This document shows, piece by piece, positions 7,305 to 36,149 of a stretch of 64,000 bases of DNA. This DNA comes from Sphaerolaimus hirsutus. Lineage: Eukaryota > Nematoda > Chromadorea > Monhysterida > Sphaerolaimidae. The stretch lies in contig OZ038455.1 in the NCBI GenBank assembly GCA_964036195.1, positions 8,759,855 to 8,823,854 on the forward strand, given 5' to 3'. Numbering within the stretch: the first letter of the stretch is position 1; each line of letters starts with the position of its first letter. Made by a program: the position numbers and the translations under genes. Under the pieces are notes generated by a model that saw only the letters and a program-made list of their open reading frames with translations, was not told the DNA's origin and did not search any database.

Positions 7305-7390
7305 TGTAATGCGATAACTGACGGCGGGCCACCAAAGTGCCAGACCCATGTCTCTGGGACGGTGACCCAGCGTCAATTAACGCTTACTAA
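7305..7390 (+). repeat. Hairpin 1 (LTR terminus)
   Basis: Loop CCCATGTC (7345-7352) on closing stem CCAGA/TCTGG. Arms TGACGGCGGGCCACC and GGTGACCCAGCGTCA continue outward to the LTR end itself (TGTAATGCG with CGCTTAC). The LTR therefore begins at the foot of a long hairpin. Confidence 0.8.
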
Positions 7391-7517
7391 ACCCTAATTA
7401 TGGCGCTTTAGCCGCCGGGGACGCCATATTGACCCATTTTGGGCCAAGTGACGTCATCACGACGTCGCCCTATATGGAACCTAACTTATAGGAAACTTAC
7501 GGCGCAATGGACGCCGG

Positions 7518-7594
7518 CTATGGTAATTGGCGCCAGATCACCAAAGTGCCAGACCTACGCCTCTGGGACGGTGATTAAGCGCGAATTACCATAG
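7518..7594 (+). repeat. Hairpin 2
   Basis: Loop CCTACGCC on CCAGA/TCTGG. The outer arms CTATGGTAATT and AATTACCATAG are perfectly complementary, with GGCGCC/GCGC and ATCACC/GGTGAT inside. Confidence 0.85.
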
Positions 7595-8144
7595 AATTGT
7601 AGGTCGATGGCGCTATGTCGCCGGTCCTAATTAGTAAAACGGCCTGATTAGCCATGTTTACTTGTGAAAAAGCCCGAGTGACGTCATTTGAGACCCCCGG
7701 GAACGGAACCTAACTTTCACGAGAGTTACGGCGCTTCTCATTAAAAAGAAAAGCAGCGCCGAGCGGAAATCGATCCCCTCGGGCATGGAGGCCGAACGAG
7801 CGCCGGCAGACGGGTTCTACGGCCGCGACAGCGCCGCGCCGTCGCCATTCGATGACCGCTAACCGCCGGAGCCAGGAAAAGGGGGATTTTTGGTGTTTTG
7901 GGGATTTTTGTAAAGCGTCAAATCGGCCACTCTTGGCCGAGTGCCAACTTCCCAAAAATGGCACCAAGCGTATTTTTGAGGGGGGGGCTAAGCGCTGTCG
8001 TCGTATTTTGGCGACAGTTTATCGCTCAAAAACATGTAAATTCACCCCTACCCAGTCCCCGCGAGCGTCGACAGCGTGGGCCGCCGGAAACGTCCGTGGA
8101 GCGACAGAACTTCGGCCGCTCAGAGTTTTTGGTGGGAGTGGCCA

Positions 8145-8214
8145 CCGGAAGGGATGGCCCCGATAGCTCCTGAAGCCTACGTCCTTCGGAGTAGAGACGG
8201 GTCACCCCTTCTGG
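8145..8214 (+). repeat. Hairpin 3 (class B)
   Basis: Loop CCTACGTC on CTCCTGAAG/CTTCGGAG. Arms CCGGAAGGGATGGCCCCG pair with GGGTCACCCCTTCTGG. Confidence 0.8.
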
Positions 8215-8253
8215 AGGGGTATGTGCCTTAGGGAAAGTAGTAAGATAGGGAGC

Positions 8254-8300
8254 GGCCCGATAGCTCCTGAAGTCTACGTCCTTCGGAGTAGAGACGGGCC
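8254..8300 (+). repeat. Hairpin 4 (class B)
   Basis: Loop TCTACGTC on CTCCTGAAG/CTTCGGAG, arms GGCCCG/CGGGCC. The inner part repeats hairpin 3 while the arms differ. Confidence 0.8.
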
Positions 8301-9092
8301 AATCCCAGAGAAAATTGGAAGAGTGCCAAAAAGGTCATTTTTGTGTGTTTTGGCACATATCCCGCAGCCACTGCTGCCACAGGGAGGAGTTTTGTGATGT
8401 TTTAGGCTGTAGGTTGTAGGTTTAGGGAGTAGGTTCGCGGTAGGTGCCGCGGTGTGTGATTTACAGCGTATGTAATTGTATTTATGTGCACTTATTTACC
8501 CACCTAACCCCCTTAGTTTGTGATAATTGCATGTGTTTGTGATTGTATTTTTACGTTCACATTTGTTTCTGTGTTTCGCACGTATTTCTGTGTTCTGCAC
8601 TTATTTCTGTGGTTGCACTTTTGCACTTTGTGTTTACTTCGCGTCAGTCGATTGGTACGCTGGTTTGGACGAGCTCACGTTTGAGCAAACACGGTTATTT
8701 TTGTACTTTGGTCCTTTTGCTTGTGTTTGCAGCTTTCGAGTAGCCTGTGGATTTACCCGGCTTGTTTTTAATTGTATTAGGTTTAATTTGGAGAGTTTCG
8801 CTCAGTTGAGTCATTTTTAGCTGTTAGTTGTACGTTTACATTTGGTAGGTTACTGTAGGTGGTTATTTCTTAGTTTGGCACAGTTCCAAGTTTGGTTTTA
8901 TTAGCTGGCTGAGTGCCAGAAGAAAGGTGTTCCTGAATGTCAAGTCACCATTCCCTTGTTCCATTAAAAAGTAACCCTTGTAGTGTAGGGTTCTGTTCAG
9001 CTGGAGTCACTTATTTTTGGTACGGTTTTGAATGCACTTTCGTGATTGGTTGGCTCCGCCCAGCTGCAAACCAGTTTTGGGCACTTCAAACC

Positions 9093-9130
9093 CATAAAAG
9101 AGAGCCCCAATCTTGTGATCATCATCAGTC
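9093..9130 (+). promoter_or_regulatory. LTR core promoter, TATA and Inr
   Basis: CATAAAAG at 9093-9100 is followed 32 bases on by TCAGTC at 9125-9130, a match to the arthropod initiator. This marks the U3/R border and puts the ORF1 start about 670 bases into the transcript. The same elements recur in the 3' LTR near 34900-34937. Confidence 0.6.
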
Positions 9131-9797
9131 TATCCAATCCAATTCTAATTACTAAGTCAGTGATTTACCAGCTGAAATGAGCCTACCCTTGGTTATTCAT
9201 TCTCTGCTAACTCTGGCATAGGCCTTCTCTTCCCTCTGCACGGTGACATTTAGGTTCACAGGGGCAGGAGTGGCCACACGGAGCTGCCGGTATAGCTAAG
9301 ATAGGGTGTTGTATGGGGAGAACCCACCATCTGTGATGCTTACTGTACGTCTGGACCTCTGTGGACTTGTTTTAGGCGTAGTATAAGCTGAAGTAGGCTG
9401 TACACCTATTGACTCGCTCTAGGCTTTCGTAAGGGCCCAAACAGTTGTGCTACGTTGTCGTAGATTACTTTTGATAGTGGTGCTGTGCCAAGCTAGGACT
9501 TAAGTACCTGGTCTTGTGTGGTCTCTTACCAGTGCATTGCATTGCTATCCTCACCTATCTGGTTTAGCTTATATGACCCTGAGTGTTATTTAGTCATTTT
9601 TATGTTAATGTGTTGATTTGGAAAGTGGAAAGGTAAATTGGAAATATTTAAATACTTTGGAAAACTTTATTTGCAACGTTATTTGAGAAACCCAATTAGT
9701 GTAATTCAAGCTTACTCCGGTGCAACTATTCTCTACCCAAATCTATTGGCTCATTCCAGCTAGTGGATCTAATTATTTCTATTCTAATTTGTGAATT

Positions 9798-12700
9798 ATG
9801 ATGGAAGTCGTTTTTGTTTGCTTGCATTCAAATAAGGTTGAATTGTCGGTTTTTGAAGGGTGGGCGAATCTTGTTTCTGTTTCCGAAAGCGCGCCAAGTT
9901 CTGAAGGGTTCTGGGAGGTTGATGATTTGGAAATGGGCCCTGTTTTTGATAGTTTTGAACCCGTGTCGGAATTGTTTCAAATTCAGCGGAGGGCCACGTA
10001 TGCAGAAAAGGTTCAGGGCGCTGGCGATTTTGTTACTGATTCTGTTCTGCCCAATGGCGAAGTGATTTGTGGTGCTTCTCAGCAGTGGTTGCTTAATCAC
10101 TTGATCATGGAGCCAGCTTTTATTGAGCCCAGAATTTGTGGTGTTTCTGAGAAAACTGCTGAAAGGCTGAGGAAAGTTGTGCAGCCTAGAAACCTTCGGT
10201 ATTTGGTGGGTAAGAGAGGGAAATTACAGCCGCACGTTATCCGCCGCAAGCTTTTGCAATTTGCGCGACCGGACTTTGTTAGCTGTGGCAACCAAGTAGA
10301 CCGAAAAGTTCCGAAGCCTACGTCCTTCGGAATAGCTAGGTCGAAAGGCACCAAGCTAGTGAAGTTTGGCAGACAGGTTTCCCGCGCACGCGGCAAGCGT
10401 AGGGCTTGTAGGGCAATTGTTGATCGTCCGGTAGACATCATGTCGCTCGTTGAATTATCGGAGTTGTGCGATCATCTAGTTGGCGTGTTGCCATCGTTTG
10501 TCGTTCCACGCGTGCAGAATGTAACCAAGTCCCCTGTTAGGTGCTGTAGATTTGGTGTAATTAGGCAGGATGGACTGCATGAGCGCATCGTTGAGAGTTC
10601 TGACGGAAATGGACATTGTCCAAGGTGTTGCTATTTGGCCCATAATGATGAAGATGTAGTACCCGGGGGTGTATTATATTATATTAGAGGCAAGGTTGCA
10701 AGACCCGGGGGGTTATATCATTATATTGGAGGTCCCACCTCGGGTCACGGCACCGTGTTGCACCCCCCTTTCACCCCCCCTTCACACCGCACACATAGCC
10801 ACCCTCCATGCGTACAGGGCGTAGTGTTTCAGCTTAGCCCTATGCTACCGTGCACATACTGGAACCACAAATGCTGGCTTTTGCGTAAGCGTTTTGAACG
10901 TTTGAAATGTGTGTCACGCGCCTATTACCGTTCGATTTCTTGGCATACTGCCCCATCCATGCTGCAACAGAGTCAAATTTCCAAATTCGAGAGACTACGA
11001 TACACCATGCCCTGGCGGCGATTTTTGATGCGAATTCTGAAATTTCCGAAATCTTTTTCATGTCCCGCGTCAGTCAATAGTCAGTTCAAGACTTTCGAAG
11101 CTACTGATATCGAGCCAGAGCTATGTCAATCATGTGAAAAATACGTGACCACTGACTACTCTTTTGACTCGTTTGATTATCAATATTTATATTTGTCAGC
11201 TGACGATGGTGCATCATGGTCCTTTGATGACCTTGAGCAATCAACTGAACTGAGCTCGTCACCATGTGCTTCAATTGATAGTGACTCACTAAAATGCCAG
11301 ACCTACGTCTCTGGGATTGTGGGTCAGGGTCAATTCAAGCGTGATGTGGACTTGGCAGCTGGCCAGTACTCGTATTTGCCAGCCGATGATGGTGCATCAG
11401 GGTCTTCTGATGACTTTGAGTTTTCAACTGAATGGAGCTTGTCATCGCATGCTTCAATTGACAGTGACTCACTAAAATGCCAGACCGACGTCTCTGGGAT
11501 TGTGAGTCACGGTCAATTCGAGCACAGTGTTGACTTGGCAGCTAGCCAGCCTAGTACTCTAGATGACTCTACTTGTGACACGGATGTGGCTCTGGAACGC
11601 GTATGCTCCACTACTTTGTCCGCAGCCCAATCGTTTCAAACAGTATTTATTGAGGACTCGCTCAATTCTTTCGAAATTATTGACGATTATATGGCCGACC
11701 CCGCTGCACTGAGTGGAGCACACACGACGCCAGATGCCAATGATAATTACATGGTGCACGCCGCGGATATTAATATGTTGCAGTATAATTCATCTTTGGG
11801 TGTGGTTAATCGCCGCCGCGGCAATTCTAACCAGCAAAGCTTCTTTGAGCTAGACGGTAGGGAACGCACGCGCCCTGTCGGTCAATGGGCCAGTACTAGC
11901 CACCACGGTGTTACGTGTAGTGATGTTGGCGACTCTGTGGGTTCTCGGGACCGGATGTCTGACCTAGCCACCCCAGCATATACCGCTGAGCCAGGGATGT
12001 CATATGTCAACGAGTCTCGGGATACAGTGTTAAGACGACCCCATGAAGAATTCCCTCACGCTACTAGTTCCCCATGCCTGAGCATTCAATCTCCTAGTAG
12101 ACCCCCCACCTCTGTCTGTGACCTAAGTACCCCCGTGAAACCACCACCATCCAACCCTACTAATAGCCCCCAACTCCAACCTCCCACTGGGTCGGTGAGA
12201 CAACATCGAGAATTACTGACGAATAACCAATCAGAGATTGATACTATGATTTCCCCCTTGCAACAAGCATGTGAACCTACTAAATTATGGGATCACCTGA
12301 GACCCTCAGATCAGTGCATTGGGGATGTGTTACAACCCTTCGAACAACTTCTAAGCGAACTGGATCCCGAGATAAATAAGTTAGACCAGCTATTGTTTGA
12401 CCTTGCTACTGTGACACCTTCTGATCCATCCCAGCAAACCACCCTGGATAATGTTACCTCGGCCCTGATGACCCTTCGAACGTGGTCACAGGCAATGTTG
12501 CCATTCCGTGGATCCCTGCAAGACTCTATTGACCGCACCCTAAGTGTTCACTTGAAACCCCGGGTTGATTCCCTAGCGGGTGATTTACAGTCCCTACTGA
12601 GTAACTTTTGTACTGATGTGAATGCCCGGACTAAGCCCCCCGTTGATGTGACTACGCCGGCTCAGAGACAAGCAAACCAGCAGGTACTGGCAGCCTCAAA

Positions 12701-13574
12701 CCCTGGCCCCGCGCGCCCACAGTCACGCGCTTACCCCGTTCAGTGCGCGCTTGCGTTTATGCAATCCGTTTTGCTAGTTTCTGCACAGTCAGCAAGGGAT
12801 TGGACTACTCTTCGTTCTCAGATTCAGTCAAAATCAACGGCTGGTGTCTTTGGCCTAGAAAATAAGGGCGTATCCCAAACAGTGCACGCTGCAGCATTGC
12901 GTAGCCTGACAGAGGCCTGGGTTTACCTCGATGTGCACCGGACCGGATTTAATACGTACATGCCATTGCTTGGCACTTTGCCAGAAACAGCTCGGTATGC
13001 TATGGCGCAATTTCACAGATGCATAGCTGAAGGCATTCGCCTCAACCATGCGTTTGCGGATATATTACCTGAGATTAAGCGCCAAGTTAATGGTCCTGTC
13101 GCTCGTAAGACAAGGAAAGAATTGCTTGCACACCTTGGTAATACCCTGGACTCTGCCCGGGACCTTTTGTGCCGCCTAGAGGATCTGGACTTTGCGCAGT
13201 ACAATGCCCTTTGTGCGATGCATATCGGTCGGGTCTCAGACAGGTGTACCCCTCAGAAATGCCGGTTGGTGTGTCAGAATTTGCTGAACAATATCGGTTT
13301 TGGATTAGACTGGCTACACCAGTTGCGTGGAAAAACTCCTGTTTCGACACCCAAACCGCAACCTTCGCGAGTACTCGAGCCACACCAGAACACGCATCAA
13401 CCATCCATGTATACCACTCCGTTGAGCCGTAGCATTTCGACCTTACCCCCCGCTTGGAATAATGTCTTAATAGCCCACCTAATGAGTCCCGACCCTATGC
13501 GGCGCTTGGCAGCGCATCAGTGGCCGCCTGATCCGTCTATCAAAGTGCAAACCGACCTCCGCACATTGTACTGA
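9798..13574 (+). CDS. ORF1, 1258 aa, starts in LTR and crosses PBS
   Basis: A single open frame begins at ATGATGG inside R/U5, crosses the LTR end at 10725 and the primer site, and continues for 950 more codons. The first 309 codons are also open in the 3' LTR copy. I recognise no family. The LTR-encoded part is mixed, with a basic stretch (SRARGKRRACRAIVD). Residues about 461-582 are two tandem 61-residue repeats (183-bp units) with the motif ADDGAS...KCQT.VSGIV, each carrying one hairpin. Proline-rich and Gln-rich sequence follows. The C-terminal 300 residues look helical and ordered. The position before Gag suggests a matrix-like or leader extension of Gag, but that is inference. The next ORF is in the -1 frame and overlaps the end. 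Confidence 0.7.
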   Translation: MMEVVFVCLHSNKVELSVFEGWANLVSVSESAPSSEGFWEVDDLEMGPVFDSFEPVSELFQIQRRATYAEKVQGAGDFVTDSVLPNGEVICGASQQWLLNHLIMEPAFIEPRICGVSEKTAERLRKVVQPRNLRYLVGKRGKLQPHVIRRKLLQFARPDFVSCGNQVDRKVPKPTSFGIARSKGTKLVKFGRQVSRARGKRRACRAIVDRPVDIMSLVELSELCDHLVGVLPSFVVPRVQNVTKSPVRCCRFGVIRQDGLHERIVESSDGNGHCPRCCYLAHNDEDVVPGGVLYYIRGKVARPGGLYHYIGGPTSGHGTVLHPPFTPPSHRTHSHPPCVQGVVFQLSPMLPCTYWNHKCWLLRKRFERLKCVSRAYYRSISWHTAPSMLQQSQISKFERLRYTMPWRRFLMRILKFPKSFSCPASVNSQFKTFEATDIEPELCQSCEKYVTTDYSFDSFDYQYLYLSADDGASWSFDDLEQSTELSSSPCASIDSDSLKCQTYVSGIVGQGQFKRDVDLAAGQYSYLPADDGASGSSDDFEFSTEWSLSSHASIDSDSLKCQTDVSGIVSHGQFEHSVDLAASQPSTLDDSTCDTDVALERVCSTTLSAAQSFQTVFIEDSLNSFEIIDDYMADPAALSGAHTTPDANDNYMVHAADINMLQYNSSLGVVNRRRGNSNQQSFFELDGRERTRPVGQWASTSHHGVTCSDVGDSVGSRDRMSDLATPAYTAEPGMSYVNESRDTVLRRPHEEFPHATSSPCLSIQSPSRPPTSVCDLSTPVKPPPSNPTNSPQLQPPTGSVRQHRELLTNNQSEIDTMISPLQQACEPTKLWDHLRPSDQCIGDVLQPFEQLLSELDPEINKLDQLLFDLATVTPSDPSQQTTLDNVTSALMTLRTWSQAMLPFRGSLQDSIDRTLSVHLKPRVDSLAGDLQSLLSNFCTDVNARTKPPVDVTTPAQRQANQQVLAASNPGPARPQSRAYPVQCALAFMQSVLLVSAQSARDWTTLRSQIQSKSTAGVFGLENKGVSQTVHAAALRSLTEAWVYLDVHRTGFNTYMPLLGTLPETARYAMAQFHRCIAEGIRLNHAFADILPEIKRQVNGPVARKTRKELLAHLGNTLDSARDLLCRLEDLDFAQYNALCAMHIGRVSDRCTPQKCRLVCQNLLNNIGFGLDWLHQLRGKTPVSTPKPQPSRVLEPHQNTHQPSMYTTPLSRSISTLPPAWNNVLIAHLMSPDPMRRLAAHQWPPDPSIKVQTDLRTLY
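10298..10342 (+). repeat. Hairpin 5 (class B, inside ORF1)
   Basis: Loop CCTACGTC (10317-10324) on a perfect CCGAAG/CTTCGG stem, extended by GTT.../AAT and GACC/GGTC. It is translated as KPTSFG. Confidence 0.75.
10727..10739 (+). promoter_or_regulatory. Primer binding site, tRNA-Gln
   Basis: TGGAGGTCCCACC lies one base after the LTR. It is the complement of the 3' end of animal tRNA-Gln (ending GGTGGGACCTCCA), recalled from known tRNA sequence. The match is 13 bases and then stops. It lies within ORF1. Confidence 0.75.
11270..11339 (+). repeat. Hairpin 6 (inside ORF1)
   Basis: Loop CCTACGTC (11302-11309) on CCAGA/TCTGG. Arms TTCAATTGATAGTGACTCAC and GTGGGTCAGGGTCAATTCAA are complementary with few mismatches. 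Translated KCQTYVSGIV. Confidence 0.85.
11451..11524 (+). repeat. Hairpin 7 (inside ORF1)
   Basis: Loop CCGACGTC (11485-11492) on CCAGA/TCTGG. Arms CTTCAATTGACAGTGACTCA and TGAGTCACGGTCAATTCGAG pair almost throughout. It is the tandem copy of hairpin 6 with changes on both arms. Confidence 0.85.
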
Positions 13575-16500
13575 CTGACTTATCTACGCACGCTTGGGTA
13601 GAACCTGTAGGCCCGGAGTTCTCTGTTGGCCCAGTGGCTGAACTGGATGTCAAAACCACTTGGGTTGGTCGTATTTTGCCTACAGTTGGTATTATGGACA
13701 CACCCTGGGCCATCATTGATCCACGGAACACCGATCTCGTGCGCGCTTATTCAAAGTTGTTGATCGCCGCGTATTTCGAGTCTGAATACATTTTCCAACT
13801 CGTGTTCCGTTATGGCTGGTTCCCAGATAGCTTACTCACTGCATTTCAGCGCTGTGCCTTCCTTGTGCAAAAGCTTGTTGATACGCTTGACCGCTCTATT
13901 AAGCATGGCGAAACGGTAGGCATAACGGACACCTATCCATTACCCGAACAGTACCATATTAATGGTCGCTTTTTGTATAAGTTGGCTAGTGATGCTCGTC
14001 GCGACTATAAGCAAGTTGGGGCCAGCTACACTAAGTTGGCACGACGATATGCGGCGGTACCTGTGCACACTACTCCGATGCTTCCAATTGACCGGAATAA
14101 TTGCTTCGAGCACTCTCGCCGTCGCTTACAGCTGCCTACCGCTCAAAACGCGCACTCACAGATGGTTCGGGTAACGAATAGTGTCAGCTGCGATGCTATT
14201 GTAGATATGATTCAGCCGGACGATGTAGGAACACGGGACAACCAATACGACTTTTTGTTGTCGCACCAGGGTTACCAGCAGCCGGACTCGGCTGGTGGAG
14301 CTCCTGCACCCGCCGCTGTGCAGGCGCCCCAGAGATTATATCATACGGGACATCAGCACACCTGTAGGCTCTCAGTTCCACCAGCACATCCCAGTTCTTC
14401 TGTAGCACCCACTTCGGCTTTAGATCAACTTAAGTCAGAAATGGACCAAAAATATGCTAATATGCGTGACCAGATGGAGGCTATGAACGCTAACATGCGA
14501 GCCCTATTAGACCAAAGGCGTGCTCAATCACGAGCTCAGCCTCAAGTTTCGCAACCAAATGTATCAAATGACCCGCCTAGCACCACAACTAGTTCGGACG
14601 AGGATTTGGCTAAGCGTATTAAGAAGCTAAAAATGCTTGGTTGTCCCATGTTCTCAGGTAAAGCGTCTGTTGATGTCGGTCAGTGGCTAGCACAGTTTAC
14701 CGCAAAATGTAGAATCTGCAAAATAGCCTCTGACGAAGAAATGGCTTTGACTCTGGCTGCTGTGTTGGAACATGATGCAGCTACGCTGTGTTATGGTCAA
14801 CCACAGGAAGTCCAGACCTCTTTTACGAAACTAGAGTCAGCTCTTAAAGCTCACTTTGGTCAGGCAAAACATGTGCTAGCTACATGCCGAGCGATTACAC
14901 TTATGAATTGGAAACCGAATGATACGATTGATACTGTGCGACGCCGTTTGATGACCGAATCCGCGCAGTTGAAAGATGTGAATCACGGCGAGCGCGAATT
15001 GCGTATGATTGAGGGATTTTTGCATGCCCTGGGTCAGCATAATTCCGAGTTGCGTCAACTAGTCGAGTTAAACTCTGCTTCACTTGAGTCTTTCGACAAG
15101 CTGATCCAGCATGCTAAAGTTGCTCAACAGTCTTTGGAAAACCGTAAGCTTGAGCAAGACCGCTCAGCTAAGGACACAGAGTTTAAGCGCATGCGCGATG
15201 AACTCTCGCAACTGCGGCAGCAAATGTCTGGTGCACGCATGGGTGATAACCGTCAGCAGTTGGGCGGTGGTATGTTAGCTGGCCAACGGCCAATGTTTCG
15301 ACCACCGATGGATATGCGCCAAAACCCGCGATTTGCCTTTCCCGCGCCACCAGCGCAGTCTAGTGCTCAACCTCCGTTCAATGCACAGCGCATGCCAATT
15401 AGACCGCAACGGGATATTCCGCCTATGCGCCTACCACCTGCCGTACAAGGTCCGCGTTTTGCTCCGCGTCCAGCAGTGGATGTAGGGCCACCTGTAGTAG
15501 CTATTGACAAGCCTGGTCGACAACCCCCCAATGCTTACAAGAGTTATTTTTGTGACAAATGTAAAATGTCCGGCCATACCACCGAAGAGTGTGGTCGCCG
15601 TGCAACCGGTCCTACCTCATCTGGCCCCGCACCAGCCCAAGCGCCGCGTGAGCCACTTAAGTGTTTTAAGTGCAATAAGCCTGGCCACTTCTCGCGCAAG
15701 TGCCCCGAAAACACGCCTGCGCGGAATGTCAATGAACTGTACGCACAGTATGATATCATACCCGACGATCAAATTGGTTACACTGATCTGCAAAATGATT
15801 TAGTTGATGGGGTAGCAGATCCTAATGACCTGCAAGGTTATTACAACGAATACCCGGCGGAAACCATGCATCAGTACCAATATGATTACTCGGATATGGT
15901 ACCACCAGAAACAGACGCATTAGCCGAAGAGGAGAACGATGTGCGTGTGAACTTTCTGGGTTCCTGCCCAGAACTTTATAACCATTCTGACCCAACTCCA
16001 ATAAGTTATTTTGATGTTTGTGTTACGCAGTGGGTGGACACGTCTACTACTGAGCCAAAGGGCGCCGCGCCAAAGTGCCAAGCCTACGTCCCTGGGACGG
16101 CACGCGCGCTCAGTGACTCAGTGGTTGGCAAGAGGCCCACTGCAAGTTTCTGTAAAACCTTGACTGGTGTCCCCCAGGTTGATCATGTTTGTGACTCGAC
16201 CCCACACCCAAGTATTCCGGAAATTCGCATCCAATCTTGCGAACCTGACCAGACCTCAGCCCTCGCGGTAACCACGCAAAAGTCCCAAGCCTACGTCCCT
16301 GGGATTCGTGATACCACGGGCACTGATGACCTGGAGCATGTACTGTTGGGTAGCCCAAAAACTGTGCAAGTACCAACACAAACATCTACCTGGACACCCT
16401 CTATTAATATGTTTCGCCCTATCAACCCCGCGACACACACGTCTGTAGTTGCTGCTCTAGATCTCAGTACTTCCGATGCTGGCCGAGAAACCTGTCGTGA

Positions 16501-16651
16501 CCGTAGGAAATATTATTGGGAACAACTTTCCCCAGATTTAGGTGTTAAACGCGTGGAATACCAATGTAATGCCACACAAGTTGTAGTAACCGAACCATTG
16601 GGTGCTCGCTTGCAAAGTGGTAAAATGACGCGTCCAAAGCACACTGCGTGA
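13574..16651 (+). CDS. gag: ORF2, Gag with two zinc knuckles
   Basis: The frame is open from about 13520, overlapping the end of ORF1 in the -1 frame. The first ATG is at 13694, so translation may come by a -1 shift, by restart, or from a spliced RNA. A coiled-coil segment (LKSEMDQKYANMRDQMEAMN) lies near 14430-14500. A capsid-like region (CPMFSGKASVDVGQWLAQFT, then LKAHFGQ and HALGQHN) covers about 14630-15130. A second coiled coil is near 15110-15230. Two CX2CX4HX4C knuckles follow at 15550-15591 and 15661-15702 (KCFKCNKPGHFSRKCPEN). The C-terminal part is acidic with a tyrosine-rich stretch and holds two hairpins, both translated as QAYVPG. The protein would coat and package the element RNA. 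Confidence 0.85.
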   Translation, partial: TDLSTHAWVEPVGPEFSVGPVAELDVKTTWVGRILPTVGIMDTPWAIIDPRNTDLVRAYSKLLIAAYFESEYIFQLVFRYGWFPDSLLTAFQRCAFLVQKLVDTLDRSIKHGETVGITDTYPLPEQYHINGRFLYKLASDARRDYKQVGASYTKLARRYAAVPVHTTPMLPIDRNNCFEHSRRRLQLPTAQNAHSQMVRVTNSVSCDAIVDMIQPDDVGTRDNQYDFLLSHQGYQQPDSAGGAPAPAAVQAPQRLYHTGHQHTCRLSVPPAHPSSSVAPTSALDQLKSEMDQKYANMRDQMEAMNANMRALLDQRRAQSRAQPQVSQPNVSNDPPSTTTSSDEDLAKRIKKLKMLGCPMFSGKASVDVGQWLAQFTAKCRICKIASDEEMALTLAAVLEHDAATLCYGQPQEVQTSFTKLESALKAHFGQAKHVLATCRAITLMNWKPNDTIDTVRRRLMTESAQLKDVNHGERELRMIEGFLHALGQHNSELRQLVELNSASLESFDKLIQHAKVAQQSLENRKLEQDRSAKDTEFKRMRDELSQLRQQMSGARMGDNRQQLGGGMLAGQRPMFRPPMDMRQNPRFAFPAPPAQSSAQPPFNAQRMPIRPQRDIPPMRLPPAVQGPRFAPRPAVDVGPPVVAIDKPGRQPPNAYKSYFCDKCKMSGHTTEECGRRATGPTSSGPAPAQAPREPLKCFKCNKPGHFSRKCPENTPARNVNELYAQYDIIPDDQIGYTDLQNDLVDGVADPNDLQGYYNEYPAETMHQYQYDYSDMVPPETDALAEEENDVRVNFLGSCPELYNHSDPTPISYFDVCVTQWVDTSTTEPKGAAPKCQAYVPGTARALSDSVVGKRPTASFCKTLTGVPQVDHVCDSTPHPSIPEIRIQSCEPDQTSALAVTTQKSQAYVPGIRDTTGTDDLEHVLLGSPKTVQVPTQTSTWTPSINMFRPINPATHTSVVAALDLSTSDAGRETCRDRRKYYWEQLSPDLGVKRVEYQCNATQVVVTEPLGARLQSGKMTRPKHTA
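16047..16123 (+). repeat. Hairpin 8 (inside gag)
   Basis: Loop CCTACGTC (16083-16090) on GCCAAG/CCTGGG. Arms ACTGAGCCAAAGGGCGCCGC and GCGCGCTCAGTGACTCAGT pair in blocks. Translated KCQAYVPG. Confidence 0.75.
16254..16328 (+). repeat. Hairpin 9 (inside gag)
   Basis: Loop CCTACGTC (16290-16297) on TCCCAAG/CCTGGGA. Arms TCAGCCCTCGCGGTAACCAC and GTGATACCACGGGCACTGA pair. Translated KSQAYVPG. Confidence 0.8.
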
Positions 16652-16652: not shown

Positions 16653-17924
16653 TTAATTACACCTAGTATTTACCACCGCGCCGTAATCCAAGGTGTAGGA
16701 CCCTATCTAGTATTAGCTGATACTGGCGCGGAATTAAGTGCCATTCCCGTGTCCTTATTAGAGCAAATTGAGAGTCTTTCAGGGAAATGTCTAGACCGTC
16801 AAATCTTTCAATTGGAAAAACCTCTTGTTTGTAAAGGCTATACAGGACATAAACATACGTTACTTTACTCGATCCAATTGACAGTCTCGATCGGTACGGA
16901 GACACGACGTATAAACTTCGCAATTTCCTTTGAAGGCACTCAGTGCATTATAGGTATTGGGGATTATGCTAAATTTTGGTTCCTACCTATTTGTCCTGGC
17001 GCCTGTATGACACGACCAGTTATGCACAGCAATAAACGGTATCTCATCCCGGGTGATGAACCTTGCTTGCTCTATGAAGGGGAAATTCCCTACGTAGACA
17101 CCGGGTTACGTACAGGCGCCATTGCAAAAACAGGCGAAAATATCCCAGAAGCAATTGAACGAGTTCAATCTAGCAATATCTACACCGTAGGATCACTTTT
17201 AGAGCTGTATTTGACCCCGAAAACAGATGTAAATAGGCTTTGCTCTTCGTCACCGGTTCCCTATTTTTCGCCAAGTAAGGGCACCGGTGCTGTTGGGGTT
17301 GTTGCGGAAAACTGGGTGTGCCCACCGCGCTCTGTGTCTTATGTGCCGGCTGAGTTGGCGGATGCTCCCCAGGAGATACTCACCATGGTTCTCTTCAGCC
17401 CACATGCACACTTTTCTGAAAATTTCGAGAACACCTTGTTACCATTAGAGAACGGAAATGAACTCTTTGTCCCGTTTGCAAATCACTCGGATAAGGAGAT
17501 GGTCTTATTTGCCTGTCAGTCTCTTGGCTGGGCTGAAGAGGTAGTGGTTGAACCAACTAACGACTTTCATATGAATGAATTGGCAGTTGAATTCGCCGAT
17601 GTATGGTGGCAAACAGTGCAGATACCTCTGTGTAAGGCTCTCTGTGAAGCCAACTTGGCTTCCACACAGGTAGAACCCCCTGAGGATCCTGTAATTACCG
17701 CCCAATCACCCCCTGAGACTCGATTGCATCAACTTGGGAAAATTCTAGACGAAGGAGTACTTAGTCACCTCCCCTTGGAAAAGCAACAGGTGTTGCGTGA
17801 CTGGCTATTAGAACGCCACCACATCTTTTCACTGTCCGACTTTGATATGGGAGATACAGGCGATATAATCTACCACCCGATCGAAACCGGAAATTCCCCC
17901 CCCGATTCAACAGAAAGTCCGTAG
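16650..17924 (+). CDS. pro: ORF3, aspartic protease and linker to RT
   Basis: LVLADTGAELSAIP (16705-16746) is the retropepsin active site, with DTG at 16719-16727. IGIGDYAKFW, about 80 residues on, probably corresponds to the second conserved block (ILG-D). The remaining 300 residues form a long linker ending in the HPIETGN motif that normally leads straight into the RT fingers. The frame then stops because of an extra base in a run of eight C (17896-17903). There is no suitable ATG at its start, which agrees with expression by frameshift from Gag. Confidence 0.8.
   Translation, partial: DLITPSIYHRAVIQGVGPYLVLADTGAELSAIPVSLLEQIESLSGKCLDRQIFQLEKPLVCKGYTGHKHTLLYSIQLTVSIGTETRRINFAISFEGTQCIIGIGDYAKFWFLPICPGACMTRPVMHSNKRYLIPGDEPCLLYEGEIPYVDTGLRTGAIAKTGENIPEAIERVQSSNIYTVGSLLELYLTPKTDVNRLCSSSPVPYFSPSKGTGAVGVVAENWVCPPRSVSYVPAELADAPQEILTMVLFSPHAHFSENFENTLLPLENGNELFVPFANHSDKEMVLFACQSLGWAEEVVVEPTNDFHMNELAVEFADVWWQTVQIPLCKALCEANLASTQVEPPEDPVITAQSPPETRLHQLGKILDEGVLSHLPLEKQQVLRDWLLERHHIFSLSDFDMGDTGDIIYHPIETGNSPPDSTESP
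17896..17903 (+). other. Eight-C run that separates protease and RT frames
   Basis: ORF3 and ORF4 would be one frame if this run were one base different. The reading frame needed after it is +1. It may be a sequencing or assembly error, a disabling mutation, or a +1 slip site. Confidence 0.7.
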
Positions 17925-22080: not shown

Positions 22081-23016
22081 TTTGCGCCGTTGTGTTAGTT
22101 TTGGCTCTGATGCTTTGGGTAGAAGATATGCACCCACATTATGGAGAAAAGATCATCTCCGTCTTGATTGAGCCACACTGTTTTGTTCGCCTTAGACCGC
22201 GCCCCATAGGTCTCCACCGCGGACTCGTTAGACAACCTGACACCTAAATTTTTTTACTAAATTGACAACCTTCCCAAGCGCGGTAGTTCGCTCTGGCCTG
22301 CTGCATTTAGTGAGATAAGCGCTGCCTTCCTGCTACTTTTTGTACTTTTTATTGCATACGCTTTCTGACAAAAGACCCCTCTCAATGCAGACTTGGGTAC
22401 TAAACTTTCCCGCCCCCGCACCCGGCCCGTAAATTCTATTTTTCTCGGAGGGCGATTTCGCCTATTACCAGCTTCCCCCCGCTTTATCATATTTCGTGGC
22501 CATTCGGGCGTGCTAGTCACTGTTCTGTTGCCTTTTTGGTGAGTGGACACAGTTGCCCTTGTGAAGACCTGTCATGTTGTGAGGCGTACTGATGTTAGCC
22601 CTTTGATTACAGATTGTGTCGGCAGTGGCTGGTTGAGCGCCCTTCATTCCGCTGCCCTCCAGTTCTGTTGTTAAGGTGACTCATTCACTTTTTGTTGTGC
22701 AATAATTCAGTTGCGATGTAGCCAATTAGTGGGAACAGTGTGAACCACCAGTTTTGAACACCGCAGTGTTTTCTCGATCGTGCAACGTGCGCACGTTTGC
22801 GATCGACGCGCGGCCGTTTCTGCCGTGCTTCGGTCGAGTTGGGACCACTGGTTGCGTCCCCTGGAAGTTGTTGTGTGATTATATTTGTTACGTGTTCTTT
22901 GTTTGAACTTAATTCTTCTGTACATTCCTTGTTTTTCGCGTGAATCTTTAATGTCGTAACCTTTTTCGTTGAAATTTTTGATCCCGGTAGAAAACTCGTT
23001 TTGTTGGCATGTTACA

Positions 23017-29836: not shown

Positions 29837-29858
29837 CATCTACCAGATATAGAGGAGC

Positions 29859-29928
29859 GCGGTGTATGGGTGTCGGGACTAAAGTGCCAAGCCTACGTCC
29901 TTGGGATTGTCTCGGCGCAAATACACCC
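29859..29928 (+). repeat. Hairpin 11
   Basis: Loop CCTACGTC (29892-29899) on a perfect CCAAG/CTTGG. Arms GGTGTATGGGTGTCGGGAC and GTCTCGGCGCAAATACACC. Confidence 0.8.
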
Positions 29929-30002
29929 AACTCAGTGATTTCTGACTGTTTTATTTGACAACTGTGTTGATGGCTATACTCTTATATGAGCTAATTAAGC
30001 CG

Positions 30003-30043
30003 GAGGATTAAAGTCCCAAGCCTACGTCCCTGGGATTATCCAA
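30003..30043 (+). repeat. Hairpin 12 (short arms)
   Basis: Loop CCTACGTC (30021-30028) on TCCCAAG/CCTGGGA, arms GGATTA/TTATCC. More distant pairing is weak. Confidence 0.7.
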
Positions 30044-30094
30044 TGGCGATGCCAGATTTATTGAAATTTAACTATGCAGTTATCCTTGCCATAA

Positions 30095-30167
30095 CGGCGC
30101 AATGCGGTGTTGAGGTCTAAAGTGCCAGACCTACGTCTCTGGGATTGCCCCCAGCACTGCACGGCGG
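30095..30167 (+). repeat. Hairpin 13
   Basis: Loop CCTACGTC (30130-30137) on CCAGA/TCTGG. Arms CGCAATGCGGTGTTGAGGTC and GCCCCCAGCACTGCACGGCG. Confidence 0.75.
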
Positions 30168-30269
30168 CGTACTGACGAGGTCACTGTTGTAAAGCCTCAC
30201 ACAGCTGCGCAATCTTCAAACGCTACTTGTCTTCGAAATAAAAGAGCTCTTTTTCTGTAGTGCACGTGC

Positions 30270-30343
30270 ACTATGATAGCTGACTGGCGAATTAAAGTCC
30301 CAAGCCTACGTCCCTGGGATTATTCTAAGGCCAGCCACATAGT
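30270..30343 (+). repeat. Hairpin 14
   Basis: Loop CCTACGTC (30305-30312) on TCCCAAG/CCTGGGA. Arms CTATGATAGCTGACTGGCG and AAGGCCAGCCACATAG. Confidence 0.75.
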
Positions 30344-30384
30344 CGCCAGAATATCATACCCTTATCAACAGCCTTATCGTGTAA

Positions 30385-30444
30385 TGTGCCATCGGTGGCT
30401 AAAGTGCCAAGCCTACGTCCCTGGGACTGTCGCTGGTGGCACAC
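30385..30444 (+). repeat. Hairpin 15
   Basis: Loop CCTACGTC (30412-30419) on GCCAAG/CCTGGG. Arms GTGCCATCGGTGGC and GTCGCTGGTGGCAC. Confidence 0.75.
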
Positions 30445-30575
30445 GGCATGATATTGCTGGTCTGTTCAAATCGAGAATCAATTGTTTCGCCCTTCAACCC
30501 CATCGGATTTCGCAATTCAACCAAACGCTTTGAAACCAACAACTGTAATCATTTATCTTTCGGAAACAGTGTCAC

Positions 30576-30649
30576 TCCGCAATGCGGTCTGGTGCCTAAA
30601 GTGCCAAGCCTACGTCCTTGGGATTGTCACCAGCTGTGTAGCGTTGTGG
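30576..30649 (+). repeat. Hairpin 16
   Basis: Loop CCTACGTC (30609-30616) on a perfect CCAAG/CTTGG. Arms CCGCAATGCGGTCTGGTGCC and GTCACCAGCTGTGTAGCG pair in blocks. Confidence 0.75.
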
Positions 30650-30862
30650 TGCGTAAAATGGGTTCAAATAATCTCAGGAAACAAACTAAATGGTCTCAGG
30701 ATTTAATAGTCACGCCGTTTGCCTCATTTGCGATTTTGTATTCTTCATTTTTGCGCATTTTCCGTCATCTCCCTCGCATTTTTGGGACTTTTTCCCTTAT
30801 TCTTGTCACTTCTGAGTTGCCATTCTTATTTTGGTGTGGTGAGTAGTAATTTATAGGGGCGC

Positions 30863-30929
30863 GGTGTGTGTGCGTAGGAACCTAAAGCGCCAAGCCTACG
30901 TCCCTGGGGTTGGTATCGACACACACACA
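30863..30929 (+). repeat. Hairpin 17
   Basis: Loop CCTACGTC (30895-30902) on GCCAAG/CCTGGG. Arms GGTGTGTGTGCGTAGGAACC and GGTTGGTATCGACACACAC are strongly complementary. Confidence 0.85.
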
Positions 30930-31004
30930 CCTGCCTCTCTCTTTTAAACAAAAGGAAATCTTCCTATTTTTGACTGCAACTTTGTACATATTTTTGGTAT
31001 CACG

Positions 31005-31080
31005 TCTCTGAGGGCCAGGTCGAGGGACTAAAGTGCCAAGCCTACGTCCCTGGGACTGCCCCGTGGCCTGGACCCAGAGG
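31005..31080 (+). repeat. Hairpin 18
   Basis: Loop CCTACGTC (31041-31048) on GCCAAG/CCTGGG. Arms CTCTGAGGGCCAGG and CCTGGACCCAGAG. Confidence 0.8.
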
Positions 31081-31627
31081 CAAGGTAAAAATTTGTGTTT
31101 CTTTACATCGCATATTTTTGAGTTGTTTAAATATTTCTACCTCAAACATATTGAGTATTGCTGCGAATAATTATCCCTAGTGTCCTATGCCGCCTTCGCA
31201 TTGTATTGAATCTGTGCTTAACAAAACCGCGTGGTCACATTAAGGAGGGCCCCTGGCTTTACATGTGCATTTAGAATCGTCAGGACGGTCCCCGGTCATT
31301 GTGTAACTATTTGGACTGGACTCATGGAATTTTGTGCACACAGTTTCCCTTTAAAACTCCAGTGACCTTGAACACTTTCTTTTAAACAGCCACCTGGATA
31401 AAGATTTTTGCTTCCCACATTTAAAGTAATCACCAATAATTTTTGCTGGTTATGGCTGGGAACAAATTTTTGCAGCCACACAATGGCCATATTAGTGGAA
31501 AATAGTTTAGTTCAGTTTCACTTCAATCTTCATGTTTTTCCAAAATTTCCTCATGTTTTCCTTGAAACTTTAACGGAATATTTTTTTTTGCACAGGAAAC
31601 ACTTTTCTGCAGCTATCTTTCTTGACC

Positions 31628-32193: not shown

Positions 32194-33047
32194 ATGCCAA
32201 TGGCTACAATGCTGCGCTGAGTATTATTTTTCTGCTTTAGGCCAACCGTAGTAATTCCAACACAATATTTGTTAAAGGTTATTTTTGTATTTGCTATCAT
32301 GCTTTTACTATGGTACAGGTGAACCACGACGTGTATTAATTTAGTTTCTAGTGTAAATTGGGTGCAGCGGTCTAAAGTGCCAAGCCTACGTCCCTGGGAC
32401 TGACCAAAGCACCCATTGTGTACGTTTTGATATCGCTTTTCTGAAATTTTCTTCTAGTAAGCGCAGTCAATCAGTTGCACGCGGCGATTTTTGATAACTG
32501 TGTGGAGGTAAGCTGCTTGAGCCATGTGTTTTGTGAAGTTAGCCGCGGATTTGATTAGAGTTGCGCTTGTGCCACCAAGATTAAGTGTCATTGTTTTGTG
32601 CTTGCGATTAGGCTGAGAATTGTTAGTCGAATGTTTTCTACCAGGATCCCTTTTGTGAATTGTTGTATTTTGTGCTGTTGTGAATATTTTCTAGCCTTGT
32701 AGTTGGTTTCACTTAGTCGCGTTTAGTTTATATTTTTAGTGGCATTCCACTTGTCTTACGGTCTCATTTACGGTTCTCATGATTCTTGCCTTAAAAAATT
32801 CTTTCTTGCCATATTTACAGATTCTGTTATGATGCTTTATTAGGGTGCTTCCAGTGCACATGTTTGCATAATTTCCAGGGCTCCACTTGCGATCTCGTAG
32901 TAGTTGTAATTCACCTCAAACATTTAACTGCAATACACCGCAACACTTTAAATACATGAAAAATATCAATATCAGTTCGACAGTTCCTTAAAAACAGTAG
33001 ATAACACCCTCTTTGCCACTGCTGCGCTGACCAGCCCGCGCTTTTAG
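32194..33047 (+). other. 3' untranslated region of the giant element
   Basis: AT-rich with one hairpin (32353-32421). I see no ORF or other repeat. Confidence 0.5.
32353..32421 (+). repeat. Hairpin 19
   Basis: Loop CCTACGTC (32385-32392) on GCCAAG/CCTGGG. Arms TAAATTGGGTGCAGCGGTC and GACCAAAGCACCCATTGTG. Confidence 0.8.
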
Positions 33048-33063: not shown

Positions 33064-33111
33064 TGTAATGCCTGTTCGCGCTGGGCCAGCGCTCAAAAGG
33101 TCGGTATAGTA

Positions 33112-33197
33112 TGTAATGCGATAACTGACGGCGGGCCACCAAAGTGCCAGACCCATGTCTCTGGGACGGTGACCCAGCGTCAATTAACACTTACTAA
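33112..33197 (+). repeat. Hairpin 1, 3' LTR copy
   Basis: Copy of 7305-7390. One substitution lies in the outer arm (CGCTTAC to CACTTAC). Confidence 0.8.
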
Positions 33198-33324
33198 ACC
33201 CTAATTATGGCGCTTTAGCCGCCGGGGACGCCATATTGACCCATTTTGGGCCAAGTGACGTCATCACGACGTCGCCCTATATGGAACCTAACTTATAGGA
33301 AACTTACGGCGCAATGGAAGCCGG

Positions 33325-33401
33325 CTATGGTAATTGGCGCCAGATCACCAAAGTGCCAGACCTACGCCTCTGGGACGGTGATTAAGCGCGAATTACCATA
33401 G
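33325..33401 (+). repeat. Hairpin 2, 3' LTR copy
   Basis: Copy of 7518-7594, identical across the stem as far as I can see. Confidence 0.8.
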
Positions 33402-33951
33402 AATTGTAGGTCGATGGCGCTATGTCGCCGGTCCTAATTAGTAAAACGGCCTGATTAGCCGTGTTTACTTGTGAAAAAGCCCGAGTGACGTCATTTGAGA
33501 CCCCCGGGAACGGAACCTAACTTTCACGAGAGTTACGGTGCTTCTCATTAAAAAGAAAAGCAGCGCCGAGCGGAAATCGATCCCCTCGGGCATGGAGGCC
33601 GAACGAGCGCCGGCAGACGGGTTCTACAGCCGCGACAGCGCCGCGCCGTCGCCATTCGACGACCGCTAACCGCCGGAGCCAGGAAAAGGGGGATTTTTGG
33701 TGTTTTGGGGATTTTTGTAAAGCGTCAAATCGGCCACTCTTGGCCGAGTGCCAACTTCCCAAAAATGGCACCAAGCGTATTTTTGAGGGGGGGGCTAAGC
33801 GCTGTCGCCGTATTTTGGCGACAGTTTATCGCTCAAAAACTTGTAAATTCACCCCTACCCAGTCCCCGCGAGCGTCGACAGCGTGGGCCGCCGGAAACGT
33901 CCGCGGAGCGACAGAACTTCGGCCGCTCAGAGTTTTTGGTGGGAGTGGCCA

Positions 33952-34021
33952 CCGGAAGGGATGGCCCCGATAGCTCCTGAAGCTTACGTCCTTCGGAGTA
34001 GAGACGGGTCACCCCTTCTGG
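33952..34021 (+). repeat. Hairpin 3, 3' LTR copy
   Basis: Copy of 8145-8214 with the loop changed from CCTACGTC to CTTACGTC. Confidence 0.8.
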
Positions 34022-34060
34022 AGGGGTATGTGCCTTAGGGAAAGTAGTAAGATAGGGAGC

Positions 34061-34107
34061 GGCCCGATAGCTCCTGAAGTCTACGTCCTTCGGAGTAGAG
34101 ACGGGCC
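34061..34107 (+). repeat. Hairpin 4, 3' LTR copy
   Basis: Copy of 8254-8300, identical. Confidence 0.8.
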
Positions 34108-36104
34108 AATCCCAGAGAAAATTGGAAGAGTGCCAAAAAGGCCGTTTTTGTGTGTTTTGGCACATATCCCGCAGCCACTGCTGCCACAGGGAGGAGTTTT
34201 GTGATGTTTTAGGCTGTAGGTTGTAGGTTTAGGGAGTAGGTTCGCGGTAGGTGCCGCGGTGTGTGATTTACAGCGTATGTAATTGTATTTATGTGCACTT
34301 ATTTACCCACCTAACCCCCTTAGTTTGTGATAATTGCATGTGTTTGTGATTGTATTTTTACGTTCGCATTTGTTTCTGTGTTTCGCACGTATTTCTGTGT
34401 TCTGCACTTATTTCTGTGGTTGCACTTTTGCACTTTGTGTTTACTTCGCGTCAGTCGATTGGTACGCTGGTTTGGACGAGCTCACGTTTGAGCAAACACA
34501 GTTATTTTTGTACTTTGGTCCTTTTGCTTGTGTTTGCAGCTTTCGAGTAGCCTGTGGATTTACCCGGCTTGTTTTTAATTGTATTAGGTTTAATTTGGAG
34601 AGTTTCGCTCAGTTGAGTCATTTTTAGCTGTTAGTTGTACGTTTACATTTGGTAGGTTACTGTAGGTGGTTATTTCTTAGTTTGGCACAGTTCCAAGTTT
34701 GGTTTTATTAGCTGGCTGAGTGCCAGAAGAAAGGTGTTCCTGAATGTCAAGTCACCATTCCCTTGTTCCATTAAAAAGTAACCCTTGTAGTGTAGGGTTC
34801 TGTTCAGCTGGAGTCACTTATTTTTGGTACGGTTTTGAATGCACTTTCGTGATTGGTTGGCTCCGCCCAGCTGCAAACCAGTTTTGGGCACTTCAAACCC
34901 ATAAAAGAGAGCCCCAATCTTGTGATCATCATCAGTCTATCCAATCCAATTCTAATTACTAAGTCAGTGATTTACCAGCTGAAATGAGCCTACCCTTGGT
35001 TATTCATTCTCTGCTAACTCTGGCATAGGCCTTCTCTTCCCTCTGCACGGTGACATTTAGGTTCACAGGGGCAGGAGTGGCCACACAGAGCTGCCGGTAT
35101 AGCTAAGATAGGGTGTTGTATGGGGAGAACCCACCATCTGTGATGCTTACTGTACGTCTGGACCTCTGTGGACTTGTTTTAGGCGTAGTATAAGCTGAAG
35201 TAGGCTGTACACCTATTGACTCGCTCTAGGCTTTCGTAAGGGCCCAAACAGTTGTGCTACGTTGTCGTAGATTACTTTTGATAGTGGTGCTGTGCCAAGC
35301 TAGGACTTAAGTACCTGGTCTTGTGTGGTCTCTTACCAGTGCATTGCATTGCTATCCTCACCTATCTGGTTTAGCTTATATGACCCTGAGTGTTATTTAG
35401 TCATTTTTATGTTAATGTGTTGATTTGGAAAGTGGAAAGGTAAATTGGAAATATTTAAATACTTTGGAAAACTTTATTTGCAACGTTATTCGAGAAACCC
35501 AATTAGTGTAATTCAAGCTTACTCCAGTGCAACTATTCTCTACCCAAATCTATTGGCTCATTCCAGCTAGTGGATCTAATTATTTCTATTCTAATTTGTG
35601 AATTATGATGGAAGTCGTTTTTGTTTGCTTGCATTCAAATAAGGTTGAATTGTCGGTTTTTGAAGCGTGGGCGAATCTTGTTTCTGTTTCCGAAAGCGCG
35701 CCAAGTTCTGAAGGGTTCTGGGAGGTTGATGATTTGGAAATGGGCCCTGTTTTTGATAGTTTTGAACCCGTGTCGGAATTGTTTCAAATTCAGCGGAGGG
35801 CCACGTATGCGGAAAAGGTTCAGGGCGCTGGCGATTTTGTTACTGATTCTGTTCTGCCCAATGGCGAAGTGATTTGTGGTGCTTCTCAGCAGTGGTTGCT
35901 TAATCACTTGATCATGGAGCCAGCTTTTATTGAGCCCGGAATTTGTGGTGTTTCTGAGAAAACTGCTGAAAGGCTGAGGAAAGTTGTGCAGCCTAGAAAC
36001 CTTTGGTATTTGGTGGGTAAGAGAGGGAAATTACAGCCGCACGTTATCCGCCGCAAGCTTTTGCAATTTGCGCGACCGGACTTTGTTAGCTGTGGCAACC
36101 AAGT

Positions 36105-36149
36105 AGACCGAAAAGTTCTGAAGCCTACGTCCTTCGGAATAGCTAGGTC
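36105..36149 (+). repeat. Hairpin 5, 3' LTR copy
   Basis: Copy of 10298-10342. The stem is CTGAAG/CTTCGG because of one C to T change, converting the C-G pair to a mismatch or wobble. Confidence 0.8.

Follow-up and report, generated by a model that had tools for sequence, protein, structure and literature searches.

We analyzed 64,000 nucleotides of the genome of the nematode Sphaerolaimus hirsutus (assembly GCA_964036195.1, contig OZ038455.1, positions 8,759,855 to 8,823,854 of the forward strand). This whole stretch is called the window, and positions are counted from its first letter. Between 7305 and 36532 lies a retrotransposon bounded by long terminal repeats (LTRs), the carrier of a family of hairpins that share a nearly constant loop of eight nucleotides. 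The pattern of change among these hairpins and their counterparts in other copies of the element supports, at the level of sequence comparison, selection on the hairpin structure.

The carrier is ~29.2 kb long, and CAAC flanks the outer sides of both LTRs as a target-site duplication. A Pfam scan of its seven open reading frames (ORFs; cut-off E<=0.01) found reverse transcriptase, RNase H and integrase in the gypsy order of Pol, plus a CCHC Gag region. By its LTRs and target-site duplication as well as by its Pol and Gag regions, the carrier is a Ty3/gypsy-type LTR retrotransposon.

7305..10725, + strand: 5' LTR, 3421 bp, 99.2% identical to 33112-36532, housing five hairpins
9798..13574, + strand: ORF1, 1258 amino acids (aa), beginning upstream of the 5' LTR end
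13634..16651, + strand: ORF2, 1005 aa, Gag-like, with a CCHC zinc knuckle
16749..17924, + strand: ORF3, 391 aa, an open frame containing DTGAE, without a Pfam match
17962..21036, + strand: ORF4, reverse transcriptase, RNase H and integrase
22969..26379, + strand: ORF5, 1136 aa
26407..28641, + strand: ORF6, 744 aa
28430..29836, + strand: ORF7, 468 aa, NADAR domain (E=2.8e-11)
33112..36532, + strand: 3' LTR, carrying second copies of the five LTR hairpins

Inventory and architecture of the hairpins

The hairpins occupy 19 distinct sites, or 24 when the second LTR is counted, all on the + strand and all within 7305-36532. The loop is exactly CCTACGTC at 15 of the 19 sites. A listing on both strands that allowed at most one change from this loop returned 22 of the 24 hairpins, and the one at 7345 and its LTR copy, with two changes, were found separately. 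The general plan is a variable basal stem, a bulge of three nucleotides on the 5' side, an apical stem of nine layers and the octaloop, whose consensus is near CCUACGYC. Two architectures were distinguished. In type A (16 sites), the bulge is mostly TAA, else CAA or AAA, and above it stand three layers, a G.G (12/16) or C-G layer, five layers (CCARR/YYTGG) and the octaloop. In type B (3 sites: 8176, 8273 and 10317), an 8-bp apical stem with GAAG/CTTC adjoining the loop is placed over an internal loop. Below the apical stem, the basal arms span 4-36 layers. In the list below, the loop of hairpins 1-19 in their first copies is CCTACGTC unless another is given.

7306..7387, + strand: hairpin 1, type A, loop CCCATGTC at 7345
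7518..7594, + strand: hairpin 2, type A, loop CCTACGCC at 7554
8142..8217, + strand: hairpin 3, type B, loop at 8176
8248..8306, + strand: hairpin 4, type B, loop TCTACGTC at 8273
10269..10369, + strand: hairpin 5, type B, loop at 10317, within ORF1 and the LTR, basal arms weak
11258..11351, + strand: hairpin 6, type A, loop at 11302, in ORF1
11441..11534, + strand: hairpin 7, type A, loop CCGACGTC at 11485, within a 183-bp tandem duplicate of the hairpin 6 segment
16042..16129, + strand: hairpin 8, type A, loop at 16083, in ORF2
16249..16334, + strand: hairpin 9, type A, loop at 16290, in ORF2
22022..22081, + strand: hairpin 10, type A, loop at 22049, in the ORF4-ORF5 interval
29844..29944, + strand: hairpin 11, type A, loop at 29892
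30005..30041, + strand: hairpin 12, type A, loop at 30021, basal arm short
30084..30180, + strand: hairpin 13, type A, loop at 30130
30270..30343, + strand: hairpin 14, type A, loop at 30305
30369..30459, + strand: hairpin 15, type A, loop at 30412
30573..30648, + strand: hairpin 16, type A, loop at 30609
30855..30938, + strand: hairpin 17, type A, loop at 30895
30993..31090, + strand: hairpin 18, type A, loop at 31041
32351..32423, + strand: hairpin 19, type A, loop at 32385
33113..33194, + strand: hairpin 1, 3' LTR copy
33325..33401, + strand: hairpin 2, 3' LTR copy
33949..34024, + strand: hairpin 3, 3' LTR copy, loop CTTACGTC
34055..34113, + strand: hairpin 4, 3' LTR copy
36076..36176, + strand: hairpin 5, 3' LTR copy

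The sites are thus distributed over the LTR, coding and non-coding parts of a single element, with five in coding sequence. Ten of the 19 lie between ORF4 and the 3' LTR (9 in 29.8-32.4 kb), where nine hairpins follow one another at spacings of 107-1344 bp, and four lie in the first kilobase of the LTR. When both strands of the window were searched with a covariance model based on 16 of the 19 sites, 18 type-A places scored E<=3.7e-13. Three further places, at 10295, 8173 and 36121, scored E<0.1; every one of these lies in 7305-36532. The best score outside the carrier was E=0.37 at 47726, so that no credible copy was found elsewhere in the window, the BEL element included. An earlier note on this DNA had counted 19 sites, 24 hairpins and 15 exact loops, quoted the closing stems, and described a single sense orientation and restriction to the retrotransposon, absent from host DNA and the BEL element; the loop listing and the covariance search bear out all of these points, and the stems were quoted correctly.

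Pairing and covariation among the sites of the window

When each left arm was scored against its own right arm at the 19 sites, the total was 207.4, where the maximum in 20,000 permutations was 118.4. The own partner ranked first at 15 of the 19 sites; the basal arms of 30021 and 10317 are weak. In a 16-site alignment, the covariation score was 0.450, compared with 0.190±0.022 for shuffled and 0.093-0.158 for slid pairings, and all 12 basal pairs vary on both sides. The closing stems had been described as differing but staying paired, which needs one correction: the second layer from the loop is an A.C mispair in 9 of the 16 type-A sites, and another core layer is G.T in 8 of the 16.

The arms had also been described as particular to each site, self-complementary and unrelated between sites. 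Their complementarity is evident from the permutations, but several arms resemble one another (29892/30895; 30130/30609; 7345/7554/11302/11485), which suggests that duplication accounts for at least part of the family's growth. Some hairpins were multiplied with larger segments (11302/11485, 7345/7554 and 29892/30895). After duplication, the arms would have diverged while remaining paired.

At the five coding sites, translation gives K-C/S-Q-A/T-Y/D-V at four and P-T-S at 10317. Since two reading frames are used, it is the nucleotides that are conserved and not a peptide, and peptide conservation was rejected as the cause.

Copies elsewhere in the genome

In the same genome (348 Mb), the exact core occurs 749 times and a reversed control pattern 0 times; a looser pattern with three bases open on each side occurs at 1054 places, compared with 33 for the control. 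Our genome-wide statements rest on parts of these sets (100 of the 1054 pattern places listed, 40 of 141 candidates scored and 45 of 2329 scored). Of the 99 places examined among the 100 listed (all but C1:12834506), 98 fall by eye into clusters spaced like copies of the element, and the other, L041, represents a partial copy. By eye all 100 listed places show one of four stem types (CAGA/TCTG, CAAG/CTTG, CAAG/CCTG and CAGG/CCTG), and each cluster keeps to a single strand throughout. On contig 1, pieces of ten places align to the window at 84-92% and bear hairpins (116 matches, E<=0.1). The hairpins hold matching positions in other element copies; the 32-base core of hairpin 19 is identical in 10 of the 10 other copies compared, and four copies (L032, L035, L037 and L038) hold a second hairpin of the hairpin 16 kind about 250 bp downstream.

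At each of the 44 other places scored, ORF4 shows 97-98% identity, and in 32 of these 44 the open frame around it measures 3,734-3,790 aa. Judged by its length, such a frame would fit a single frame over the ORF1-ORF4 region, and the window copy is probably interrupted, as its ORF1-ORF4 (9798-21036) look like pieces of one frame. Because the LTRs of the window copy are 99.2% identical and ORF4 is 97-98% identical elsewhere, mostly in one open frame, the family appears to have stayed active until recently, over the time in which its non-coding DNA was diverging. A copy at 6246232-6266832 of contig 1 has ~2.7 kb instead of ~7.8 kb between the hairpins of the 22049 and 29892 types (~5.1 kb less) and retains hairpins on both sides of the shortened interval, 14 among the matches listed.

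In viral contigs, the core pattern matched once, on a 4.5-kb contig (L001), where the match falls within an open frame. We rejected it as a real core and read it as chance, the AAAG bulge being absent by eye. The type-B pattern gave 0 matches in viral contigs, as did the core in prokaryote genome contigs.

Selection on the hairpin structure

Differences were scored against the window copy, on which the pairs were also defined; rows are distinct sequences from partly related copies. The flanks differed at 1749 of 16,191 positions (10.8%), the basal arms at 576 of 7248 (8.0%), the loop at 33 of 1144 (2.9%) and the apical stem at 49 of 2574 (1.9%), with no usable rows for 7345. The apical stem thus differs 5.7 times less than the flanks. 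As many loci had been fetched via an exact core, which biases cores towards no change (chiefly 11302, 16083 and 22049), the count was repeated on loci fetched only by similarity to 32200-32480. At the four sites covered (7345, 7554, 30895 and 31041), the flanks differed at 1226/10,442 positions (11.7%), the basal arms at 445/5044 (8.8%), the apical stem at 38/1692 (2.2%; 25 at 30895), the bulge at 8/282 (2.8%) and the loop at 51/752 (6.8%; 38 at 7345, which raises the figure, the window loop being odd there). The order apical stem < arms < flanks was preserved, and the basal arms at 7554 and 31041 vary less than their flanks. Shared variants per position numbered 0.207 in flanks, 0.126 in basal arms, 0.042 in the bulge, 0.016 in the apical stem and 0.103 in the loop; the corresponding values for singletons were 0.191, 0.131, 0.104, 0.033 and 0.037.

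Pair repair and breaking, and wobble pairs, were counted at 16 of the 19 sites, with 8273, 10317 and 11302 (fewer than five distinct copy rows) and the window locus L062 omitted. Among shared changes in the basal arms, in copies only, 31 of 67 transition mispairs were repaired, compared with 39 of 292 Watson-Crick pairs broken by transition (p=1.6e-8). The repair/break ratio is 3.46 (1.99-6.47 by bootstrap over the 16 sites), and random flank pairs gave 0.93. Coordinated changes were also found in the core: one copy has CCAAG..CTTGG in place of CCAGA..TCTGG at 30130, and a T-A pair is replaced by C-G at 10317. As pairs in the arms are repaired more than they are broken, unlike random flank pairs, these data support selection on the hairpin structure, as the earlier note had proposed; the covariation and the low rate of change in the apical stem and loop point the same way.

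Possible function and the nature of the folded molecule

The near-fixed tip and bulge, set on a free stem and repeated about 20 times, look like a protein-docking array, in keeping with the multivalent protein site that the earlier note gave as one option. Our preferred interpretation, to which we give a probability of about 0.4, is that the hairpins form a dispersed array kept by selection on the single-stranded genome of the element, each copy docking the same protein. The obvious reader would be the Gag that the element itself encodes, since this protein possesses a zinc knuckle and has to locate and condense one long nucleic acid. Within this interpretation, Gag-bound packaging or condensation would be the most likely role. 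The zinc-knuckle region would read the tip and bulge, the basal stem would only present them, and the 19-20 or so sites over the 29-kb transcript could serve the selective packaging of this unusually long RNA and its condensation into the particle.

Several results weigh against this interpretation or against selection on pairing. At two of the four sites in the repeat count (7345 and 30895), the basal arms vary as much as the flanks. The repair/break contrast is weak among singletons (15/67 compared with 40/292, p=0.09, in the same direction), there is no excess of matched double changes (5 matched and 3 unmatched; 7 and 6 in a second count, from Watson-Crick pairs), and the window has A.C where other copies pair at 16083 (7/7) and 30895 (9/9). 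An RNA helix is expected to tolerate G.U and not A.C, but Watson-Crick pairs of the basal arms were lost to G.U 39 times and to A.C 40 times, with 1304:1345 in the control. G.U was also the most labile state, with 0.91 minor states per pair compared with 0.52 for A.C and 0.42 for Watson-Crick pairs (G.U against A.C, p=0.11). Finally, retroviral packaging signals usually lie near the 5' end, and 13 of the 19 sites are away from it, either between 29.8 and 32.4 kb or within the LTR's first kilobase.

As G.U is tolerated no better than A.C (ratio 1.05, 0.62-1.82), the folded molecule need not be RNA. The suggestion of the earlier note that the single orientation favours RNA is weakened, since the wobble test shows no tolerance of G.U and direct duplication alone would give one orientation. 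The main rival to a Gag-bound RNA is a hairpin acting as DNA, formed either in the single-stranded cDNA while the element is being reverse transcribed or as a cruciform when the element DNA is double-stranded. It would be bound by an element protein that organizes how this very long DNA is copied or subsequently handled. Losses of Watson-Crick pairs relative to the control are depleted almost equally towards G.U (0.49), A.C (0.47) and other mismatches (0.43), the G.T and A.C core layers leave neither RNA strand free of mismatches, and the folding energies of the two strands fail to separate the hairpins from the controls (+ minus -, mean -2.1 compared with -1.6, sd 5.9). However, the confidence intervals are wide, the standing mispairs (44 G.U and 23 A.C, p=0.05) lean towards sense RNA, and we know of no LTR element with such DNA hairpins. 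We consider this rival rather unlikely. Its specific single-stranded form, in which an element protein would read ~20 near-identical tips along the nascent cDNA of the 29-kb retrotransposon and so guide or protect its copying, is in our estimate unlikely.

Alternatively, a host protein might read the hairpins as an RNA export, stability or localization element that moves the 29-kb unspliced RNA, in the manner of the constitutive transport element (CTE) of Mason-Pfizer monkey virus (MPMV) or the direct repeats of Rous sarcoma virus (RSV). In the parts of PMC7551171 used here, these two elements are described as recruiting NXF1. The placement of 10 of the 19 sites between ORF4 and the 3' LTR, and of four more in the first kilobase of the LTR, would suit this role; the five sites in upstream coding sequence would not, and no Rfam family reached its gathering score in the window, with three chance-level matches in 29700-33300. 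We regard such an element as quite unlikely, and the same Rfam result led us to drop a twister-like ribozyme.

The remaining alternatives rank lower still, the first two of them being disfavoured. Hairpins without function, an old repeat multiplied within the element whose arms are kept alike by template switching of the polymerase, are improbable: some hairpins did arise with duplicated segments and 4 of 7 matched double changes lack a seen intermediate, but the apical stem has 5.7 times fewer differences than the flanks. Under template switching, moreover, about half of the missing single changes would be expected as matched doubles (an estimated ~30 shared), and 4 were seen, with ~5.6 expected from the control rate. 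Still less probable is kissing between loops through their ACGT palindrome, for dimerization or compaction, a contact raised in the earlier note, which would set a dimerizing CCUACGUC hairpin apart from a CCUACGCC hairpin. The 15 window loops with CCTACGTC would suit it, but loop variation is mainly T/C at position 7. At 8 of 18 sites (7554, 8176, 8273, 11485, 16290, 30021, 30130 and 30609), part or all of the copies carry C at this position, and in a larger set of copies some do so at 7345 and 30895 as well. A C there breaks the palindrome while most of the loop is kept, which speaks against the proposed contact. Least probable of all is a source or decoy of double-stranded RNA, in which long hairpins feed or block small-RNA pathways or mimic microRNA precursors. 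The length of some arms and the close succession of nine hairpins would fit, but conservation peaks in the apical stem and loop and is lower in the arms. The pattern in microRNA precursors is the reverse, and a microRNA precursor was dropped for this reason.

Other features of the carrier and the window

None of ORF1, ORF5 and ORF6 matches a Pfam family at E<=0.01. A search of 5.8 billion proteins with ORF1 and ORF5 gave no relative at E<=1e-3. ORF4 and ORF6 have no relatives in viral contigs. We read the DTGAE of ORF3 as a retropepsin motif, and the NADAR domain of ORF7 is, to our knowledge, unusual cargo for a retrotransposon.

The start of ORF1 (9798-10725) lies, unusually, inside the 5' LTR, upstream of TGGAGGTCCCACC at about 10727, which resembles a primer-binding site. 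The frame spans the LTR end and this site, and a truncated repeat of it (365 aa) is present in the 3' LTR. At about 21140-21210, 3' of ORF4, a purine tract and an LTR-start-like stretch, GGTATAGTATGTAA, resemble the genuine ones at 33050-33116, as if this were the end of an older element to which the G+C-rich ORF5-ORF7 block was added downstream later. Plus-strand priming normally begins directly at the LTR; at 33052-33112, about 47 bases separate the purine tract from the start of the 3' LTR. In the tandem repeat of the LTR (7440-7700), a CRE-like TGACGTCA lies downstream of each of the two hairpins.

Elsewhere in the window, a BEL/Pao element occupies 51017-63300 on the - strand, with LTRs 99.9% identical and a 3239-aa frame, and carries a fusion-glycoprotein-like domain (Monjiviricetes_fusion, E=2.5e-10). 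The host DNA holds a palindromic foldback repeat family rich in TGTAAAGTGTAAAG at 4690-4874, 47504-47702 and 63788-63984.

Comparison with known systems

The mobile GC clusters and double-hairpin elements of fungal mitochondria, named earlier as the nearest analogues, are repeated hairpins with a common core that insert in many places. They fit poorly here: in the window and at the 99 pattern places examined of the 1054 in the genome, the hairpins of the carrier keep to one element family and, within a cluster, to one orientation, and they stand at fixed, matching places across its copies, some having been duplicated with larger segments. The gypsy retrotransposon of Drosophila also contains a cluster in which one motif, the Su(Hw) site, recurs about a dozen times; these are double-stranded DNA sites and lack the paired arms found in the carrier. 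The CTE and the RSV direct repeats occur in one or two copies, compared with 19-20 in the carrier. As far as PMC7551171 was drawn on here, they are likewise structured RNA elements of retroelements that recruit a protein.

A further likeness is with dispersed packaging signals. In the sections of PMC6281560 used here, dispersed stem-loops with a common recognition motif are the proposed packaging signals of several RNA viruses, and recognition of those of MS2 depends on a motif in the loop together with a bulged A on the 5' side. MS2, the hepatitis B pregenome and parechovirus all have many motif-sharing stem-loops per genome, according to the excerpts of PMC6281560 and PMC5431903 on which we rely, and the carrier, too, has several stem-loops with a common loop motif along its genome. 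The MS2 motif comprises a few bases, of which other sites share aspects only, whereas in the carrier a loop of eight nucleotides, a stem of nine layers and a bulge are near-fixed at 19 sites. For Ty1 and Ty3, the portion of PMC4974528 used here states that packaging sites are not clearly defined and that scattered sites may contribute.

In size and coding plan, the carrier recalls the Burro elements of planarians, which the consulted text of PMC6431247 describes as gypsy-type, over 30 kb long, with one huge polyprotein and CCHC knuckles. The MATH, BIR, BCL2 and ankyrin accessory domains reported there for Burro were found in none of the seven ORFs of the carrier by Pfam at E<=0.01, and a hairpin array is not mentioned in that part of the article. 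No comparable array was found in the literature on LTR elements, of which mainly the open-access portion was covered, so that this is no proof of novelty.

The same portion of PMC6431247 names particle capacity as one limit on the size of retrotransposons. If the hairpins are Gag sites, they would be an exceptionally clear example of a genome recognized at many sites and might explain how giant elements are packed; if they act as DNA, they would be a new kind of cis element. With ~20 copies of a small, defined module in a ~29-kb family, natural variants and a clear core, the hairpin can be tested in isolation as RNA or DNA. Among dispersed structured cis sites, the array is set apart by its precision and copy number.

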